NCBI RefSeq assembly: GCF_002196705.1
Contig: NZ_NADJ01000037.1
Location: forward strand, 186,001 to 250,000
DNA from: Desulfosporosinus sp. FKB
GTDB taxonomy: Bacteria > Bacillota > Desulfitobacteriia > Desulfitobacteriales > Desulfitobacteriaceae
Length of the DNA: 64,000 nt
Reading direction: 5' to 3'
The translations under genes were made by a program, and so were the position numbers. A model generated the notes under the pieces. That model did no database searches and was not told the DNA's origin. It saw only the letters and a program-made list of their open reading frames with translations. Positions within the stretch are counted from its first letter, which is position 1, and each line of letters starts with the position of its first letter. Positions 2,624 through 38,775 of the stretch are shown piece by piece.

Positions 2624-3648
2624 TTAGTTTTTCTGGCTTTCATGTTTAAGTACAAGACGTTGAACTATCACTGCAATGAACCCTATAACAAGCAAACCAA
2701 CAAAAGCTGATAAAAGGTAACCCAGCGCCTGCTGCCAGAATGTTTGGTCGAACCCAGTAATGCCATAGTCTGGTAAAATTGTATGATGCCAAAAATCACT
2801 GAATTTCTGTAAACCACTTGGAATGAATCCAAGTTGCGACTGCAAATCTTCGCCTCCCCATTCACCCCATGCAGTTCCTGATGCCAGGAGTCCCAACGGA
2901 GTGAGGACAGCCATGACCAATAACCCTATCACAAAATTTCTTATACGGTAGGAAGCATTCATACTCTGTGATTTATTTCTCAGTTCTAACAAAGCCGGAC
3001 TAGACCGTTGCAAATAAGCAATCACTAAGGCATTAACTACAGCCTCTACAGGACCTGCCACTGTCAAATGAGCAAAGAGCATTGCCGGTAATGCTACATT
3101 CAGCCCGTACGGGCTATAGAGTGGGTTCCGTTGGCCGAGTGGAAAAGAAGTGGCTGTAATCCGAACTCCGTTCCTGCAGATACTGCAGCAACTGTAAGCC
3201 CGATATAACCGGCTATAGCCGCACCTATCCAACGACGTTTTGATGAAATCTCGCTTTTCCCAGCAATTATGCTAAATATGGCATAACTTACAAAAGGCAG
3301 GATAATGCCCATGTTGAAGATATTAGCACCTAATGCCAAGATCCCACCGTCACCGAAAAAGATTGCTTGAATCACTAAAGCAATCGTAACGCCAATTGCG
3401 GCTGTCCAAGGCCCAAAGAGGATCGCTAATAACGAACCACCGATCGCGTGAGCTGTTGTACCGTCTGGAATGGGAACATTAAACATCATAATGGTGAAAG
3501 AAAATGCGGCACCAATAGACAATAGAGGGATGTTTTTAGCACTGAATGTTTTAGAGGTTTTCTTTGCTGCGGCTGCCAGAACAGATGCACTGATTAAACC
3601 GAGTACCGCGTCTGTTTGTGGACTTAAATACCCATCTGGAATATGCAT
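2624..3648 (-). pseudogene. CbiM/NikM-type ECF nickel/cobalt transport protein, one-base frameshift
   Basis: This is the substrate-specific membrane component of an ECF nickel/cobalt importer, with a C-terminal extension like the N/PDGLE part. The start is ATG at 3648, after AAGGAGGAA, giving MHIPDG; His2 of this motif is a metal ligand in the family. The first frame runs through PIPDGTTAHAIGG and GTEFGLQPLLFHSANGT, then reaches a premature stop near 3100. The next frame takes up at PLYSPYGLNVALPAM and continues to 2624. Restoring one C in the run at 3123-3125 (GGG on the plus strand) would join them into about 341 residues. The frameshift may be a sequencing error in a homopolymer or a true mutation. 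No EcfT or EcfA partner is adjacent. Confidence 0.85.
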
Positions 3649-3676
3649 AAATAATTCCTCCTTCGTAAAATAAAAA

Positions 3677-3726
3677 GACCATGAAAAATTGGGCACGACT
3701 TCTGTCATGACAAAACCTTCATGGTC
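3677..3726 (-). ncRNA. Nickel-locus leader hairpin, copy B
   Basis: The minus strand reads GACCATGAAGGT, an inner stem CATGAC-AGAA-GTCGTG, then AATTTTTCATGGTC followed by TTTTTATTTT. The 9-bp outer stem plus U-tract resembles an intrinsic terminator. It sits about 28 bases before the cbiM start, immediately before its ribosome binding site. Confidence 0.7.
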
Positions 3727-29896: not shown

Positions 29897-30403
29897 TTAG
29901 GACTGGTTTGCTTTAGCAGAAGCATTCTGATAACCAGAACCGGCCCGGTTCTTAATTGCAGAATCCAAGTTCGGTCCTTGAAGGACGGTCCAGTAATATT
30001 TTGCCGCAATTGCGTAGGAAGTAGCATTATTCTCTAACACCAAAGCATCCGCTGAGTCTAAGAGTTTGTTATAGGTGTTAAGGATTTTCTGAGAGGCTGT
30101 CGTCTTATCCCCTGACGAGACCAATGGGCTCTCATAAAGAGTATTGTAAAATGCTAAAGCTTGTACATAGAAATCGCCCCTGGGCTGCTGAGGGATTTCA
30201 TAGTTATACCAATAATCTCCGTTCGTCATCAATGACTGAGGATCAAACGCCAGGTCCCCGCTGTGCATAGGATGATCAATATTAAGGCTTACTTTTAGTA
30301 TTTGCCTGCGTGACGAACTTTCCTTCTGGTAATATTTGTGAGGATTTGAACTAAGTTTATTCTCTCCCCATACAGCGTAATTTTTCTGTTTGCTCTTGAT
30401 CAA
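29897..30403 (-). CDS. Hypothetical protein or fragment
   Basis: An open frame of up to 168 residues overlapping the end of hyuB by 47 bases. I do not recognise it. The first 50 residues are low-complexity and probably noncoding; a more natural start might be the ATG giving MHSGDLAFDPQSLM. The rest (DYWYNYEIPQQPRGDFYVQA, KILNTYNKLLDSADALVLEN) reads like a soluble helical protein rich in Tyr and Asn. There is no signal peptide or good ribosome binding site. It may be the C-terminal remnant of a larger gene. Confidence 0.4.
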   Translation of the reverse strand: MIKSKQKNYAVWGENKLSSNPHKYYQKESSSRRQILKVSLNIDHPMHSGDLAFDPQSLMTNGDYWYNYEIPQQPRGDFYVQALAFYNTLYESPLVSSGDKTTASQKILNTYNKLLDSADALVLENNATSYAIAAKYYWTVLQGPNLDSAIKNRAGSGYQNASAKANQS

Positions 30404-32096
30404 TGCCCTTATCTGTTAAGACTACTCCATAATCTTGTCTGGCCTTAAGTAAGGAAATAATTCCATCTCGAACATCCTGTCTAACCAACTCAGGATCTCG
30501 CTGATAAGGGTCTCCCCAACCGCCGCCACCTGAAGAAATAATTGTGAGAACTTCCCCATTTGGCAACGAACGAGCTCCTTCTTTGCTTCTTAGGTAAATA
30601 GTTTGTTCCTCTATTGATGTTAATTCAACCTGATTCAAACTTCCCGGTTTACCCGTAGAAGAGCCAAAAGGTGGTATTTTCATTCCATCGCCAAACATGA
30701 CAATATTTGTATTATCGCCATAAAATTTGAGGCTATATCGGATACCTGGTCCTCCGCGCCACATTCCTGAACCTGCGCTATCCATTTCAAGTTCATGGCA
30801 CAAGGTCAGATGGGGATATTGGATCTCATTGACCTCAATATTGGGCGCGCGCACACCTCCATAGTTTGAAAGCGGAGCCATGTAAGGATTGCCGTCCCGG
30901 CCTTCTATTCCTCCTCCGGAACCCAACGCACAGAAAGCAAAACCTACGTAGAATTCATGATTCCTCGGATCGATACCATAGAAAGACGGACCGCAATAAC
31001 GTCCAAAACCGGCTGGCAGTTGTTCACAGGCTACAGGTTCCAAAGCTTGAAAAATAGCACTAATGATCTCACTTGCGGGAGTCAACGTACTCAAGGTCAC
31101 AGGAGCGGGATCTGCGGGATTTAGGAGGCTTCCCCTAGGCAAGAATACATGTATTGCTCTAAAGGCCCCGCTATTACGTGGAATATGAGAACCCAAGGCC
31201 CATAGAGCACCGATCCAAGCGGCAGATGTACTTGTCACTGAGGCAGAGTTGACGAAACCTAGAACCTGCGAATCAGTTCCGGAAAAGTCGAGAGTCATCT
31301 TTTCCTCTACAACCTTAACCGTAACCTTAATTTTAATCGGATCAGCTTGAAAGCCGTCGTCGTCTACCCATTCTTCGCCGGAATATTCTCCATCCGGGAT
31401 TCGTTTTATAGCTTGGAGCGTGAGTTCTTCCGCATGATTCAAAAGGTATTCCACCGTTTCTTTGATTCGGTCCGCAGAGTAGTGATTCAATAATTCCCTT
31501 AAACGGGCAATTCCGATATTGTTTGCACCAATTTGCGACCACAAATCACTTTGAAGCATTTGCGGATTTCTGACATTGCGCAGGATCAACTCCTGAACCT
31601 CAGGGATTATCTGGCCCCGACTTATTAATTTGATGGGAGGTATACGTAAACCTTCCTGGAAAATCTCAGTTGCTTTGGGATTATAACTACCGGCGACAGA
31701 ACCTCCGATATCTCCATGGTGAGCTCTGCTAACACAATAAAAGAGAATCTCTCCATTTTCAATTAACGGTGAAATAATTCCTATATCCGGCAGATGATTT
31801 CCACCTTGATAAGGATCATTGATGATAAAGACATCACCTTCATGAATCTGACCATGGTACTTTTTAATGACTTCCTGAACGCTAAAAGTTCCTGCTGCGG
31901 CTAAAATTGGGATGCCATTGATCTGGGAAACTAACTCTCCTTTTCCGTTGCATATACCACAGGCAAAATCGCATGCCTCGGCAAAAATCGGGGATCTGGA
32001 TGACCTTTCCAATGCCCAGCCCATTTCTTTGGTGATCGTATCCAAGCGATTCGCAATTACAGAACGCTCAATAACCTCATCCACTTTGGCATTCAT
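30357..32096 (-). CDS. Hydantoinase B/oxoprolinase family subunit
   Basis: A 579-residue HyuB-type subunit. Typical segments are WALERSSRSPIFAEACDFAC, INDPYQGGNHLPDI near residue 95, HHGDIGGSVAGSYNP near 125, and the Gly-rich end ISSGGGGWGDPYQRDP. It overlaps hyuA by 20 bases and must form an ATP-dependent HyuAB complex that opens cyclic amides or carboxylates substrates, as in 5-oxoprolinase, hydantoinases and acetone carboxylase relatives. The operon position behind a B12 riboswitch and ECF transporter makes the substrate unusual and unknown. Confidence 0.9.
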   Translation of the reverse strand: MNAKVDEVIERSVIANRLDTITKEMGWALERSSRSPIFAEACDFACGICNGKGELVSQINGIPILAAAGTFSVQEVIKKYHGQIHEGDVFIINDPYQGGNHLPDIGIISPLIENGEILFYCVSRAHHGDIGGSVAGSYNPKATEIFQEGLRIPPIKLISRGQIIPEVQELILRNVRNPQMLQSDLWSQIGANNIGIARLRELLNHYSADRIKETVEYLLNHAEELTLQAIKRIPDGEYSGEEWVDDDGFQADPIKIKVTVKVVEEKMTLDFSGTDSQVLGFVNSASVTSTSAAWIGALWALGSHIPRNSGAFRAIHVFLPRGSLLNPADPAPVTLSTLTPASEIISAIFQALEPVACEQLPAGFGRYCGPSFYGIDPRNHEFYVGFAFCALGSGGGIEGRDGNPYMAPLSNYGGVRAPNIEVNEIQYPHLTLCHELEMDSAGSGMWRGGPGIRYSLKFYGDNTNIVMFGDGMKIPPFGSSTGKPGSLNQVELTSIEEQTIYLRSKEGARSLPNGEVLTIISSGGGGWGDPYQRDPELVRQDVRDGIISLLKARQDYGVVLTDKGIDQEQTEKLRCMGRE

Positions 32097-34155
32097 TTAG
32101 AGCATCCCTTCCTAAATAGATTAACAAGTTTCCTAACTGATCGATGTAAGCCTGACAATTGTACTCTAATAAAACAGTGGTGTACTCTTTTTTAATGACA
32201 GCGGGTCCCTTTAAGCACATCCCTGGCTTCAAATTTTTCCGCCGATAACTCTTGAGCGTTTGAAACTTCCCGTTTAGATATAATGAACACATGCCATCGT
32301 CTGGCGTTTCCAGAATTGTATAATGCTCTGTTTGGGCCGAAGGAATTTTTTCCTTCTCTTTGACGAGCAGTTTTAAATTAACCAGTGTTAATGATTTCTC
32401 AGTCTGACAATAACCGTAAAGCCTTTGATGTTGGGCATGGAATTCCTGACCCAACTGCTGCCAAACCGGAAAGTCCGAAACGTCGCAAGGCAATTCGATG
32501 CTAATTTCATGATGTTGATCAGGATATTTTAAATCTGCTGACCAAACATAACTATGCTGATCCTTAGTAATACCAAGCCGAGACATTTCCTGATCCGCCT
32601 GATCCTTAAGTTTACGCAGCGTTTGCTGCAAATTCGAGTTAACGCTTTCACCTAAAGGTTCGAAGATGGTACTCGATACCTCAACTTGAAAAGGAGCATA
32701 ATGCAACCCTTGAGCACAAAAAACCGGAGCCATTTCGGGGACCACGACCTTATTTATACCAATTCCAGCCGCCAATGCTGTTGCAAATAAGGGCAGAGCA
32801 CCTCCAACTGCTGCCAAGGAGAACAAACGTGGATCATATCCTTTTTTGACAGTCATGAGATAGACCGCATCAATCATGAGCGAGAGGGCTACCTTATAAA
32901 TGGCGTAGGCTGCTTCAGGCACAGATAACCCTAAGGGATGGGCAATTTTTGTTTCAATGGCCTTAAAGGCTTGCTCCACATCTAATATCATTCGTCCACC
33001 CAAGAAATCATGAGCATCAATTAAACCCATCACGAGAGCAGCATCAGTAATCGTCGGTTCTGCCCCTCCTAAGCCATAACAAGCCGGTCCTGGATTAGCC
33101 CCTGCAGAATGAGGTCCAACCCGCAGCATCCCACCATGATCCAGCCAGGCAACACTTCCCCCGCCCGCACCTACAGTATGAATATCTAACATCGGTAATT
33201 GGAGCGGGTATCCAGCAACCTCTGACTGGGGTGTTACTTCCATCTTGCCTCGGCGGATTAGGGAAACATCGAAGCTGGTTCCCCCCATATCTGTTACGAC
33301 CAATTCTGAAAGTGATAACTCATGAGCTAAGGCCCAGCCCCCTTTTACTCCTCCGGCCGGACCGGAAAAAAGGGTAGAAACTGCTTTCTTTCTTGCTTGG
33401 AACAGATCTGTCAGCCCGCCATTATTCTGGGCGATTGATATAGGTACTTTTAGACCGAAATCCTGCAGATGATTGCTTATTTCCAGTAAATAATTGCTTA
33501 ACAACGGGCTGAGCCGAGCATTTAAGACTGTTGTAGAGGTTCGTTCATATTCCCCTACTTGTGAGGAAAGTTCTGATGACAACGATATAAAAACGTTGGG
33601 CAGGAGAGCCTGCAATAAATACTTAAACTCTTTTTCATGCGCAGGATTACGGCAGGCAAACAGCAAACATACGGCAACAGATTCAATCTCTTCTTGTGCT
33701 AAAAACTCAGCGATTTCCGCTATTTGCGCTTGATCAATACTTATTAGCGGCACTCCTCGATAATCCATCCTCTCCCGCAAACCAATCCGCAGATACCTGG
33801 GAACTAAAACGGGAGGTAAAGGCTGGCTGAAATTCCATTGTTCCGACAGTTGAGAGCGCCGTAATTCTATCGCATCACGAAAACCTGCGGTGGTAATCAA
33901 GGCCGTCTTTGCTCCCTGCCCCTGGAGCAAAGCGTTAATTCCCACAGTTGTACCATGCACAAATTTATCAATTTGCGGCATAAATTCTTTAAGTTGAAGG
34001 TCTAATTTTCGAGCCAAGTCACTTAATCCTGAGATTATGGTTTCTTTTGGGTCTTCCCGCTTAGAAGGAATCTTTGCTGTCATTGCGCGCCCTTGTTTGT
34101 CCCTCACAATAAAATCAGCAAACGTTCCTCCGATGTCTACAGCGATTTCGTACAT
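32077..34155 (-). CDS. Hydantoinase A/oxoprolinase family subunit
   Basis: A 692-residue HyuA-type subunit with the actin-like ATPase fold. Landmarks are the phosphate-1 motif AVDIGGTFADFIV at the N-terminus, VHGTTVGINALLQ near residue 66, FSGPAGGVKGGWALA near 265, TDMGGTSFDVSLI near 290 and GAGGGSVAW near 335. The ATG follows GGAGGCAAGGA, 12 bases after the ubiD stop. With HyuB it forms the ATP-using enzyme. The metal-binding and substrate residues cannot be judged by eye. Confidence 0.92.
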   Translation of the reverse strand: MYEIAVDIGGTFADFIVRDKQGRAMTAKIPSKREDPKETIISGLSDLARKLDLQLKEFMPQIDKFVHGTTVGINALLQGQGAKTALITTAGFRDAIELRRSQLSEQWNFSQPLPPVLVPRYLRIGLRERMDYRGVPLISIDQAQIAEIAEFLAQEEIESVAVCLLFACRNPAHEKEFKYLLQALLPNVFISLSSELSSQVGEYERTSTTVLNARLSPLLSNYLLEISNHLQDFGLKVPISIAQNNGGLTDLFQARKKAVSTLFSGPAGGVKGGWALAHELSLSELVVTDMGGTSFDVSLIRRGKMEVTPQSEVAGYPLQLPMLDIHTVGAGGGSVAWLDHGGMLRVGPHSAGANPGPACYGLGGAEPTITDAALVMGLIDAHDFLGGRMILDVEQAFKAIETKIAHPLGLSVPEAAYAIYKVALSLMIDAVYLMTVKKGYDPRLFSLAAVGGALPLFATALAAGIGINKVVVPEMAPVFCAQGLHYAPFQVEVSSTIFEPLGESVNSNLQQTLRKLKDQADQEMSRLGITKDQHSYVWSADLKYPDQHHEISIELPCDVSDFPVWQQLGQEFHAQHQRLYGYCQTEKSLTLVNLKLLVKEKEKIPSAQTEHYTILETPDDGMCSLYLNGKFQTLKSYRRKNLKPGMCLKGPAVIKKEYTTVLLEYNCQAYIDQLGNLLIYLGRDALNECQSG

Positions 34156-34167
34156 TCCTTGCCTCCT

Positions 34168-35541
34168 CTATAAACCAAAAGATCCCATGAAACGACGAAT
34201 CTGTTGTTGAACTTCTGCTGACATTTCAACGGTCGGTGCAAACCCTGAGAGAGGTTTCGTCGCATCTATACCCATTTTTGAGGTGCGGCTTAACTCATCG
34301 GATGACGGATCGAGGGTACAGCCCATACCCATATGCTGTGGTACAATCGTCACACCCCGATCGGCTTGCAGTCGGGTGGCCATGGCCCAGAGAACCTGGC
34401 GTTCATCAAAAACATCCACATCCTCATCGACAACCACCACCATTTTCAGATTATGATCAACCGAAAAGGCCGTAAAAATTGCTTGCTGGGCTTGCCCCTC
34501 GGCAATCTTTTTCAGGGAAATATAGCAGTGAAATAACCCGCAGGCCGAAACCGGAGCATGGACATTTTTGACATTAGGGAGAGTTCTGTTCAGTGCATTT
34601 AAGACATCCCCTTCTCTTTGGACCGCAACAATGGTAATATGTTCAGAACTCATTCCCGGTGTTATGTCTTGAAAGAGAGGTTTCGTTCGGTATTGTATTG
34701 CTTTTACCCGGAAAACATTTTCCGTACTGCGATAACAAGCATAATTCGTAAATTCTGCAAATGGCCCTTCAGATTCCCGCTCTCCGGCGACAATTTCTCC
34801 CTCAATAACTATCTCGGCGAATGCAGGAACCATTAGATCGACTGTTTTACAGCGGGCGACTTCCAAAGGAGCACCGAATAATCCTCCCATAGCCGCAAAT
34901 TTACCGAGATGATATGGGACTAAGGCCATAGAACCCATAGATATGTTCGGATGAATGCCCAGAACTACCGCTGCTTCGAGAGATTTGCCCAGTTCTTCCG
35001 AACGACGGAAATACTCCCAAAGACGTTGACGGGAATGAAGACTTATCCCTAATTTGTCCTTCCCTTTTAGCTGCATCCGATGATATCCTGCGGTTTCAAC
35101 TCCTGTTTCCGGGTCTTTGGCAATGACTAAGCCCGCAGTGATATAAGGTCCGGCATCAATCGGAAAGTGAGTTAAAATTGGCAATTTAAAAAGGTCTGCC
35201 TCGGAACCAATAAATACATTCTCCCGGAAAGGTGCTTCATCTACCTCCACAGGGTCAATTCGCTGATTAATACGTTTAGAATATTCAGCTGCCAGTTCAT
35301 GAGGTGCAACCTCCAGCGCTAAAGCCAGACGTTCACGAGGAGCCAGGACATTGGCAGCCACAGAAATAGCATGACCTTTTATGTTGTCAAAAATCGTTAA
35401 CGGGTACCGGCGGGCTTTCTCCAGTTCCATTATCAAAGTACTTATCTCATACTTAGGGTCTATCTCCTCTTGAACCCGGATAACCTCCGACGGATTTTGA
35501 GATTTAACGCGTTCAATGAATCCTCTCAAATCCTGTTCCAA
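34168..35541 (-). CDS. UbiD family prFMN-dependent (de)carboxylase
   Basis: A 457-residue UbiD-type enzyme. GYHRMQLKGKDKLGIS and HSRQRLW (residues 152-174) correspond to the prFMN and metal-binding region, and GERESEGPFAEFTNYACYRS (257-276) carries the Arg-Glu-Glu catalytic set. UbiD enzymes reversibly decarboxylate aromatic or unsaturated acids with prenylated FMN made by UbiX; no ubiX gene lies in the window. The start is TTG at 35541 behind AAAGGAGGT. It lies between the ECF S component and hyuA in one operon. Confidence 0.9.
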   Translation of the reverse strand: MEQDLRGFIERVKSQNPSEVIRVQEEIDPKYEISTLIMELEKARRYPLTIFDNIKGHAISVAANVLAPRERLALALEVAPHELAAEYSKRINQRIDPVEVDEAPFRENVFIGSEADLFKLPILTHFPIDAGPYITAGLVIAKDPETGVETAGYHRMQLKGKDKLGISLHSRQRLWEYFRRSEELGKSLEAAVVLGIHPNISMGSMALVPYHLGKFAAMGGLFGAPLEVARCKTVDLMVPAFAEIVIEGEIVAGERESEGPFAEFTNYACYRSTENVFRVKAIQYRTKPLFQDITPGMSSEHITIVAVQREGDVLNALNRTLPNVKNVHAPVSACGLFHCYISLKKIAEGQAQQAIFTAFSVDHNLKMVVVVDEDVDVFDERQVLWAMATRLQADRGVTIVPQHMGMGCTLDPSSDELSRTSKMGIDATKPLSGFAPTVEMSAEVQQQIRRFMGSFGL

Positions 35542-35612
35542 CTAAAATACCTCCTTTAGTATCAAACGCTTTTTTGGCCTATTTTCCGTTGAGGATCTAC
35601 TTTAAATTGTTT

Positions 35613-36143
35613 TTAGAGTAATGCTGATTTCTGTAAAGAACCATAAACACTCTTCGTCAGGCTTCCTGCGACGATGGTTCCTACTAAAGCTGTCAGCGCA
35701 GAAGACAAAAAGGCAATTTTCCAGTCAAGATGGATAACATAAATCAAGCCGATTGTAACGCATAGGTTGCCGATAACATTACAGCCCAACATAGCTACAA
35801 GGTGGTGGCTTAATTTCGTCATAGATAACTTAACAGCAATCAATGAGTAAACAATGGATCCGATAGTATTGGCAAATAAGAAGAAAAATGCTAAAGGGGA
35901 ATAGGCTGTTGCCATGGCTACAATAGCTTCCACTAATCCTGCAATAATACCCGCTGGTTGTTTGTACATTAAAACAATGAGTCCCGTAAAGAATGCCCAA
36001 CATGTACCATTAAGCAGTAAGAGAGTGGGATCTAAAATACCGTCGATTCGTCCCGTTATCTGCTCCATGATCACAAATACAATCCCGATAATGACAGCTC
36101 CTACAAGTGCTTTGGTGTCAGTCCTAAACAATTTTTCTTTCAC
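35613..36143 (-). CDS. ECF transporter substrate-binding S component
   Basis: A 176-residue, very hydrophobic protein with five or six membrane helices and no other domain, typical of ECF S components. It starts at GTG after AGGAGGAG. It is flanked by ecfT upstream and ubiD downstream. I could not assign it to a named S family such as RibU, ThiT or CbrT. The B12 riboswitch at the operon head suggests a corrinoid or a corrinoid precursor such as a benzimidazole as substrate, which is inference. Confidence 0.8.
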   Translation of the reverse strand: MKEKLFRTDTKALVGAVIIGIVFVIMEQITGRIDGILDPTLLLLNGTCWAFFTGLIVLMYKQPAGIIAGLVEAIVAMATAYSPLAFFFLFANTIGSIVYSLIAVKLSMTKLSHHLVAMLGCNVIGNLCVTIGLIYVIHLDWKIAFLSSALTALVGTIVAGSLTKSVYGSLQKSALL

Positions 36144-36175
36144 GTTATTCTCCTCCTAAATCATTAATTATGGTC

Positions 36176-36922
36176 TTATATTAATGGCAACAGCCTTGTT
36201 GTTATGCTGAGGCTTATTACCAAGAACATCGCGACAATTATTACAACATCGTAAGACTTCAGAGCTATATCCGATGAAAACGTTCGGTTTTTGCTCCGCC
36301 CGTAACCTCTTAACTCCATTGCTAAGGCTATTTCCGTTGAGCGACGAACAGCACGATACAAAAAAGGCAGGAACGTTGGAATAATTGCTTTCAGATCGTC
36401 CCAAACGCTATCCATTTTGAGGCCCCGGGTTCGCTGGCTGTCGATGATCGACTGATATTCTTCCTTCATAAGGGGTAAAAAACGGACAGCTAGTCCCACC
36501 AGCATGGCAAAACGATAGGGAATTTCAAATTTCACGAGCATTAGGGTAAAGTCTTGAGCTGAGGCGGAGGTAAAGAACTGTAGACTGGCATAGAAAATAA
36601 GTGTCGCTTTCAGTATGCCGGTAATCGCCAGCGGCAGAGAATCGCTGTAGATTTTAATGATGCCCCATTGATAGATTAAAGTACCCTCCCGGCAAAACAG
36701 TAACTGAATAATCAAGATCTGAAGTCCCAAAAGCAAAAGAATGATGACCATAGCCTTAGAGTGTTTAAATGAACCACTTAGAATTAACGAGGACGTAATA
36801 CACACTAGTAACGTAATTCCTAATTGAGCAGCAGTTTGACTGAGCAGTGCAAAGTAAATCATCAAAATATACCAGACAAGCTTAGTGCGGGGATCAAACT
36901 TCGGAAGTGCCAGTGTCATCAT
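36176..36922 (-). CDS. ecfT: ECF transporter transmembrane T component
   Basis: A 248-residue EcfT protein with about five membrane helices. The coupling motifs with the conserved Ala-Arg-Gly pattern are visible as SQRTRGLKMDS near 163 and MELRGYGRSKN near 208. It overlaps the end of the ATPase gene by 29 bases, so translation is coupled. It links the S component to the two ATPase domains. Confidence 0.9.
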   Translation of the reverse strand: MMTLALPKFDPRTKLVWYILMIYFALLSQTAAQLGITLLVCITSSLILSGSFKHSKAMVIILLLLGLQILIIQLLFCREGTLIYQWGIIKIYSDSLPLAITGILKATLIFYASLQFFTSASAQDFTLMLVKFEIPYRFAMLVGLAVRFLPLMKEEYQSIIDSQRTRGLKMDSVWDDLKAIIPTFLPFLYRAVRRSTEIALAMELRGYGRSKNRTFSSDIALKSYDVVIIVAMFLVISLSITTRLLPLI

Positions 36923-38438
36923 AACCCTCCTTGAAAGTTACAGTGTTTGGGAAATCCAGACCAATCGCCTTCAGTTCCTCACGATGTCTCTCTATGTCTT
37001 TTGTCTCAATATCCAGCCTGATGCGATGCTTATATAGGGCAACTAAGCGGTTTGAATAGTCTTTTGCCATGGCCAGATCATGGGTAATTAACAGAATGGT
37101 TTTGCCATTGTTCGATAAGTCGTAGAGTTTCTCCATAATCACGTAACCTTGGTTCTCATCCAGGCCAGAGGTAGGCTCATCAGCAATAATGAACTCCGGA
37201 TCACCGGCAAGTATCGATGCTAATGCCAGAAGTTGACGCTGACCACGGCTTAGACGCTGGGGATGCATTTCCTTGTAATCCGCCAGTCCTACGAATTGCA
37301 AACATTCATCAACTTTCTGATTTAGAAAATCATTTCGTTCACCCCTTAGCTTTAAGGAAAAACCCACCTCTTCCTCCAATGTGCTAGCAAAAATCTGGTG
37401 GTCTGGGTTTTGAAATAAAAACCCCACACGAGCCCGAATCATTCCAAGGTTTTTTTTATGGATAATCTGATCAAATAAGCGAATTTCACCCTTTGCAGGC
37501 TTTAGCAAACCTATAAGCAATTTCGCCAAGGTCGATTTTCCCGAACCATTCAAACCGACAACTGACAAAAAATCACCCTTATAAACTTCTAAATTAATAT
37601 CTTCACAACCCGGTAATTGATTATTGTACTGATAGGAAACATCACTGATTTTAGCTATAGTCTCCCTGGGTTTTTTTCTGTCAAGATTATAATGCATGCT
37701 ATCTCTGAACATTTCTTTTCGGTCCTTAATTTGAACCTGGTAATATTCCCCGGGTGAGTACTCTTTTATAATTTCACCGCCTTTAAGCATTAAAACTCTA
37801 TTAGCATAGTTAAGCACTTCCTCAATTCGGTCCATAACCAAGACAATCGTGAGATTTTGAGTTTTATTTAACTCCCCAAGCCGCTTATATATCTCATGGC
37901 GGCCCTGTGGGTCCAGTTCGGCAGTCGGTTGATCAAGAATTAAAATCGGAACTTTGAGGGCTAATACTCCTGCTAAAACAACGCGTTGGGCCTGCCCGCC
38001 TGAAAGAGAAGAAGTTTGTCTATTTTCGTAACCACGCAAACCCACAAACTCCAGCGTATTTTTAACAACCTGATCAATTTGTTCATAAGGAAGTTCTTGA
38101 TTTTCGAGTCCGAAGGCAACGTTCTCGCAGACATTTAAACTAATAATTTGATTATCGGGTTCCTGCATCATGTATCCCATATAGTCCGACATTCTATTGA
38201 GCGGCATTTCTTTAATGTCTTGTCCCAAAATTGTTACTGTTCCTGTTAATTCTGCGTTATGGTAATGAGGAATCGCACCAGTAATGACGTGTAATAATGC
38301 TGATTTTCCCGAAGCCACCCCCCCGGTAATGACGATAAAATCTCCTTGATTAATTTCTAAATTAATGTTTTTAAGTACGGGCTTATCATTATTCGGAAAC
38401 TTGAGTTTATCAATTTTAATTTTGGCAATTACTTTCAT
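36894..38438 (-). CDS. ecfA: ECF transporter ATPase, two ABC domains in one chain
   Basis: A 514-residue fusion of two ABC ATPases. The first domain has Walker A GGVASGKSALL, signature SLSGGQAQRV and Walker B PILILDQPTAELD. The second has GLNGSGKSTLAKLL, RLSRGQRQLLA and EFIIADEPTSGLDE. It is the EcfA-EcfA' motor of the transporter and the first gene of the riboswitch-controlled operon. The ATG at 38438 follows AGGAGATTG. Confidence 0.92.
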   Translation of the reverse strand: MKVIAKIKIDKLKFPNNDKPVLKNINLEINQGDFIVITGGVASGKSALLHVITGAIPHYHNAELTGTVTILGQDIKEMPLNRMSDYMGYMMQEPDNQIISLNVCENVAFGLENQELPYEQIDQVVKNTLEFVGLRGYENRQTSSLSGGQAQRVVLAGVLALKVPILILDQPTAELDPQGRHEIYKRLGELNKTQNLTIVLVMDRIEEVLNYANRVLMLKGGEIIKEYSPGEYYQVQIKDRKEMFRDSMHYNLDRKKPRETIAKISDVSYQYNNQLPGCEDINLEVYKGDFLSVVGLNGSGKSTLAKLLIGLLKPAKGEIRLFDQIIHKKNLGMIRARVGFLFQNPDHQIFASTLEEEVGFSLKLRGERNDFLNQKVDECLQFVGLADYKEMHPQRLSRGQRQLLALASILAGDPEFIIADEPTSGLDENQGYVIMEKLYDLSNNGKTILLITHDLAMAKDYSNRLVALYKHRIRLDIETKDIERHREELKAIGLDFPNTVTFKEGYDDTGTSEV

Positions 38439-38471
38439 GGCAATTTCAATCTCCTGTAATTTTGACTAAGA

Positions 38472-38508
38472 ACAAAAAAGTCCTAGCTTAAAAAAGCTAG
38501 AACTTTAC
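38472..38508 (-). terminator. Expression-platform terminator of the cobalamin riboswitch
   Basis: On the minus strand AAGTTCTAGCTT and AAGCTAGGACTT pair around T-rich loop bases and are followed by TTTTTTG. It lies between the riboswitch and the EcfA gene, as expected of a transcription-terminating platform. Confidence 0.75.
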
Positions 38509-38529
38509 CTTTGTCCTCTTTGCATTATT

Positions 38530-38685
38530 TTATAGGCAGGTTTCCTGACTTATAGACTCAAATGTACGCCTTCCCAGTTACCCAGTGGCATATGTACATT
38601 TTCAACGTCTAATTACAGTGGTGGGTCCGTCCAGGATTTTTACCTGGTTCCCTATTATCCCCGATTTGGGGCACCTATAAAAAAT
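38530..38685 (-). ncRNA. Cobalamin riboswitch
   Basis: Read on the minus strand: ATAGGTGCCCC, GGGATAATAGGGAACCAGG, then AAAATCCTGG, CGGACCCACCACTGTAA, GCCACTGGGTAACTGGGAAGG and AGTCAGGAAACCTGCC. These are the ordered conserved boxes of the B12 element. It precedes the terminator and the EcfA gene. Confidence 0.92.
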
Positions 38686-38775
38686 TGTATTTAATTTGCT
38701 AACTATAAAAATAATAGAATAGTTTGTTTAGTTTGTCAATGAATTTCTACGCCAGATGCCTGACTTTCAGTTGCC

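Follow-up and report, generated by a model that had tools for sequence, protein, structure and literature searches.

A conserved ECF importer-UbiD-HyuAB operon under a cobalamin riboswitch in Desulfosporosinus and its relatives: a candidate for cobamide lower-ligand supply

Several described systems bear on the locus reported here. The CblS-CblT pathway of alpha-ribazole salvage likewise places an ECF importer, there of a lower-ligand intermediate, under a B12 riboswitch, but there the ECF importer is paired with a kinase and here with a decarboxylase and a lactamase-like enzyme, and the S components of the two systems have no detectable similarity. The thiamin and HMP importers YkoEDC, HmpT and ThiT share the predicted fold of our S component, EcfS, and YkoD is, like our EcfA, a fused double ATPase; however, our locus is under a cobalamin riboswitch, and EcfS does not match the YkoE family model. 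Anaerobic benzimidazole synthesis (Bza) together with CobT, the enzyme that activates the lower-ligand base, reaches the same end that we propose for this operon, namely lower-ligand supply, but the operon has no ThiC-like enzyme. The closest solved relative of our UbiD is 6h6v (phmmer, 294 bits), which we take to be the furandicarboxylate decarboxylase HmfF, and the operon, regulation and partners of HmfF-type enzymes differ from those seen here. One survey found that 42% of predicted cobamide producers carry neither known benzimidazole-synthesis genes nor known phenolic-attachment genes (PMC6461909).

The window analysed is a 64,000-nucleotide stretch of the Desulfosporosinus sp. FKB genome, and all features of the operon lie on its minus strand. 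Its control region and gene spacing show a predicted cobalamin riboswitch with a terminator at the head of one tightly packed operon. The original prediction had named conserved B12-box segments and a terminator platform, and both held up: a covariance search returned a full-length RF00174 aptamer (38518..38693, model positions 1-189) at 107.6 bits and E 5.6e-26, against a gathering score of 31.5, flanked on its 5' side by a promoter-like site (TTGACA-17-TATTAT, 38711..38739, 11/12 consensus matches, predicted) and on its 3' side by an intrinsic terminator hairpin (38506-38477) with a 13-pair stem, a T-rich tail and a fold z of -3.57. Since the whole 5.1-Mb genome has only ten RF00174 matches, chance would not be expected to place one less than 500 nt ahead of any particular gene. 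Six genes follow in the predicted order and with the predicted families, except that EcfA proved to be a fused double ECF ATPase: EcfA (36894..38438; 514 aa; TIGR04520, 414 bits, two ABC_tran stretches), EcfT of the CbiQ family (36176..36922; PF02361, 104 bits), EcfS, a candidate substrate-binding S component with six predicted helices (35613..36143), a UbiD-family prFMN decarboxylase (34168..35541; PF01977/PF20695/PF20696), HyuA, an ATP-dependent lactamase/oxoprolinase-type subunit (32077..34155; PF01968/PF05378/PF19278), and the HyuB subunit (30357..32096; PF02538, 501 bits). EcfA and EcfT overlap by 29 nt and HyuA and HyuB by 20 nt, while the gaps are 32 nt between EcfT and EcfS, 71 nt between EcfS and UbiD, the largest, and 12 nt between UbiD and HyuA. 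An element uncoupling ubiD-hyuAB from the riboswitch had been named beforehand as one of two observations that would count against the idea, and no promoter-like or terminator-like site was seen when the EcfS-UbiD gap was scanned. Neither the operon DNA nor EcfS had a match in plasmid searches. Elsewhere in the window (2624-3708, minus strand), two overlapping ORFs in different frames jointly resemble one CbiM-type gene, perhaps frameshifted.

The same linkage recurs within the order. An EcfS search of 74 genomes found the protein in 26, and 23 of the 25 relative ECF loci fetched carry a cobalamin riboswitch; at one of the other two (L042) the S gene is near a contig start, and at the other (L054) it stands without EcfA and EcfT. 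Most Desulfosporosinus genomes have the riboswitch and ECF genes with no ubiD behind them. The ubiD gene does follow them in the window genome, in G009, G017, G046 and G030, as well as in the five members of genus g14, which is presumably Dehalobacter. The UbiD of G030 is 90% identical to that of the window, but its EcfS only 50%, so that the two halves of the operon are exchangeable. Where ubiD-hyuAB lies outside the ECF operon, it has a cobalamin riboswitch of its own in all 12 Desulfosporosinus loci examined (L118-L128 and L130), on the same strand and with the aptamer end 106-467 nt upstream of the start codon, and the UbiD proteins of these loci are 87-91% identical to ours. At L130, ubiD-hyuAB immediately precedes the ECF genes, with a separate riboswitch for each of the two groups; at L128, riboswitch and ubiD are separated by a 73-aa ORF that resembles EcfS residues 122-174, a fragment that fits descent from a former joint ECF-ubiD operon. 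Riboswitch linkage of both operon halves, repeated and independent, is thus well supported, and the B12 connection originally proposed for the gene set is strengthened. We also considered that UbiD-HyuAB might be a chance neighbour of the importer, and rejected this in view of the loci at which ubiD has its own riboswitch.

Beyond the order, the gene set recurs in several other Bacillota families with its gene order shuffled, often accompanied by UbiX and an LpdD-like protein. Two Thermincola-type genomes (G176 and G209) have the riboswitch followed by EcfA-T-S-UbiD-HyuA-HyuB; G092 has the S gene on a separate contig with its own riboswitch. UbiX and the LpdD-like protein lie behind HyuB at L084/L140 and, together with a DUF2284 protein, in all five g14 genomes. 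The order in G128 is riboswitch-HyuA-HyuB-EcfS-UbiD-EcfA-EcfT, UbiX and the LpdD-like gene being divergently oriented, and G170 has one riboswitch for UbiX/LpdD-like and another for EcfS-A-T-UbiD, with an MBL-fold gene in the place of HyuAB. Among 398 genomes sampled across the phylum, with S carriers counted at strong E-values, this UbiD occurs in 12, all of which are among the 16 carriers of this S component (hypergeometric p 6.5e-20, a statistic that ignores kinship). Comparison of these genomes shows that the coupling of riboswitch, ECF, UbiD and HyuAB is conserved and is not a local chance; co-occurrence in other genomes was one of the checks that the original prediction had proposed.

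Several further associations were seen at these loci. At L158 6842-12590, L062 and L157 8714-12073, what stands behind the riboswitch and this S component is a gene for an aldehyde ferredoxin oxidoreductase in place of UbiD-HyuAB; this variant belongs to Thermincola-type and G048 genomes, and a small ferredoxin-like gene is present in L157 and L087. Another cobalamin riboswitch (L157 2133-4579) lies ahead of genes for an alcohol-dehydrogenase-like protein and a TrpD-like phosphoribosyltransferase. The DUF2284 protein at the operon end in g14 (L060 1352-2632, minus strand) is conserved and faintly O-methyltransferase-like in its N-terminal part, and a DUF2284 gene also adjoins the ECF genes in a Methanomassiliicoccus MAG. 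In G176, the operon has a long CRISPR array with CRISPR-DR2 repeats (L137 1-3264, minus strand) at a distance of a few kb.

The N, Rift and C domains of UbiD all score above curated cut-offs, and its motifs RE.EGPFAEFT and HRMQLK are invariant in 31 sequences. HyuAB had been predicted either to open rings or to carboxylate, and the first of these is favoured: by model score HyuAB resembles the ATP-dependent lactamases (caprolactamase/oxoprolinase) more closely than the carboxylases, with HyuA at 570 bits for CapA against 309 for ApcC and HyuB at 369 bits for CapB against 130 for ApcD, and the best PDB match of both subunits is 6yra. A carboxylase role was set aside on these scores. Caprolactamase CapAB and 5-oxoprolinase provide the best-scoring family models, but HyuA and HyuB stay below the equivalog cut-offs, at 570 and 369 against 1000 bits for CapAB and at 309 and 130 against 1500 bits for acetophenone carboxylase, and scores so far below them make it likely that the substrate differs from that of caprolactamase.

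The transporter is composed of EcfA and EcfT, both identified by family match, and of an S component identified by operon position and fold. EcfS had no match in Pfam and NCBIfam (family match at E 0.1) or among PDB sequences (E 10), so we name it from its place in the operon, its homologues and its predicted fold. Homology of EcfS to a known unrelated vitamin family would have spoken against the original prediction, and none of these three collections gave a sequence match. The AF2 model (pLDDT 90.4) is nearest in predicted fold to ThiT/HmpT/YkoE, its structure matches (VIA) including ThiT (Z 15.9, rmsd 2.6, 160 aligned), 4hzu_S (Z 15.2) and 5edl (Z 14.4); since S components share one fold, such a match gives no substrate and separates no families. 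Elsewhere in the window genome, another ECF set under riboswitch control includes a kinase-like gene (L066 13170-14675) and from its gene order seems to be CblS-CblT; its CblT-like S component shows no detectable similarity to EcfS (BLASTP 11 bits, E 12).

A link to cobamide assembly comes from G009, the nearest relative of the window (S 97% and UbiD 98% identical). Here the order is riboswitch-cobT-riboswitch-EcfA-T-S-UbiD-HyuA-HyuB, with cobT under its own riboswitch, and this cobT is the only full-length copy in that genome; such linkage was found in this one genome only. CobT is encoded in 23/23 UbiD-positive genomes of the order, and 11 of these 23 have no ThiC/Bza homologue. The window genome itself carries tandem BzaA/B-like genes and so may make its own benzimidazole.

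We tentatively suggest, as a serious possibility and one short of a firm assignment, that the operon is repressed by B12 and serves to import and process a heterocycle from which the lower ligand of cobamides is made. When cobamide is sufficient, the riboswitch would end the transcript at the terminator, and when there is too little, the operon would be read. The ECF complex would then import a small ring compound in trace amounts, and this compound is probably a nitrogen heterocycle that carries an amide within the ring, a carboxylate or both; HyuAB would use ATP to open the cyclic amide or to modify it, UbiD would remove the carboxylate using prFMN supplied by UbiX, and the product would enter cobamide assembly, most likely as the lower-ligand base or as a precursor for CobT. 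That B12 represses, what kind of compound is imported, which enzyme acts first and that CobT receives the product are our inferences. This reading is preferred because of the cobT neighbour in G009, the leaning of the S component toward small heterocycles, and the published finding that Desulfitobacterium, a related genus, takes a lower-ligand purine from the medium (PMC6389850). The original prediction had left open whether the importer serves a corrinoid or a lower-ligand precursor that the enzymes then remodel; the same cobT neighbour and small-heterocycle leaning, together with the ECF mode of uptake, favour the precursor, and whole-corrinoid uptake becomes the less likely choice. The stricter form of the proposal, a new supply route in which ECF imports a heterocyclic acid or lactam from which UbiD and HyuAB make the base used by CobT, is one that we hold a little more loosely still. 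It is not obvious how ring opening by HyuAB would lead to an aromatic base, and several genomes keep the riboswitch and ECF genes without UbiD-HyuAB; both points, like the BzaA/B-like genes of the window genome, count against a lower-ligand role.

The alternative that survives best, though we consider it unlikely, is B12-sparing catabolism, in which UbiD-HyuAB would draw carbon or nitrogen from an imported ring compound without any need for cobamide and replace a B12-dependent route when B12 is low. Cobalamin riboswitches do control B12-independent isozymes, and the distant relatives of EcfS sit in catabolic loci: the only ones in the sample occur at two loci alongside genes for hydantoin racemase and amidohydrolase, with PucR and ureidoglycolate lyase genes present as well at one of the two. 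Searching in either direction recovers this relation, and a wider search of two orders for S relatives of this hydantoin/allantoin type found no further members, so that the clue rests on two loci. These loci, like the nearness of the EcfS fold to ThiT/HmpT/YkoE, also count for the lower-ligand reading. A UbiD only 61% identical to ours, in G036 (L129), also fits catabolism, having no riboswitch and lying near TctABC-like transporter genes. However, ECF importers usually serve trace nutrients, downstream catabolic enzymes are not conserved in the operon, and the riboswitch-controlled neighbour in the nearest relative is cobT.

We regard as improbable that the ECF complex takes up a cobamide, cobinamide or a damaged form for UbiD-HyuAB to repair or remodel. 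Corrinoid uptake or synthesis is what cobalamin riboswitches usually control, which would suit such a role, but we know of no UbiD chemistry on a corrin, and BtuFCD-like genes among the other riboswitch-controlled loci of the genome make whole-corrinoid uptake through this importer less likely. BtuM (Z 9.2) is also a poorer fit to the EcfS model than ThiT/HmpT/YkoE (Z 14-16), although this comparison is no clean test of corrinoid import, since CbrT was not among the matches listed. ECF-CbrT is described in one report as importing B12 (PMC5997447), which counts in favour of corrinoid import. It is very improbable that EcfS imports an unrelated vitamin precursor of the thiamin/HMP type on which the enzymes act, with the riboswitch as cross-regulation, as the closeness of its fold to ThiT, HmpT and YkoE might suggest, for that fold is common to all S components, the sequence searches gave no family or PDB match, and the searches of ECF and ubiD loci reported no TPP riboswitch.

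As far as the literature searched goes, no description of these genes with cobalamin riboswitches was found, although mention in older work is possible; the original prediction likewise knew of no described pathway with this set. A study of corrinoid starvation in D. restrictus describes five riboswitch operons, among which, judging from its main text, the present one is apparently not included (PMC4285132), and that main text makes no mention of UbiD, hydantoin or decarboxylase.

We return to the lower-ligand precursor as our preferred, tentative reading. A conserved importer and its enzymes under cobalamin riboswitches make a concrete, testable candidate for lower-ligand supply, and the chemistry of the B12 regulon would widen to prFMN decarboxylases.
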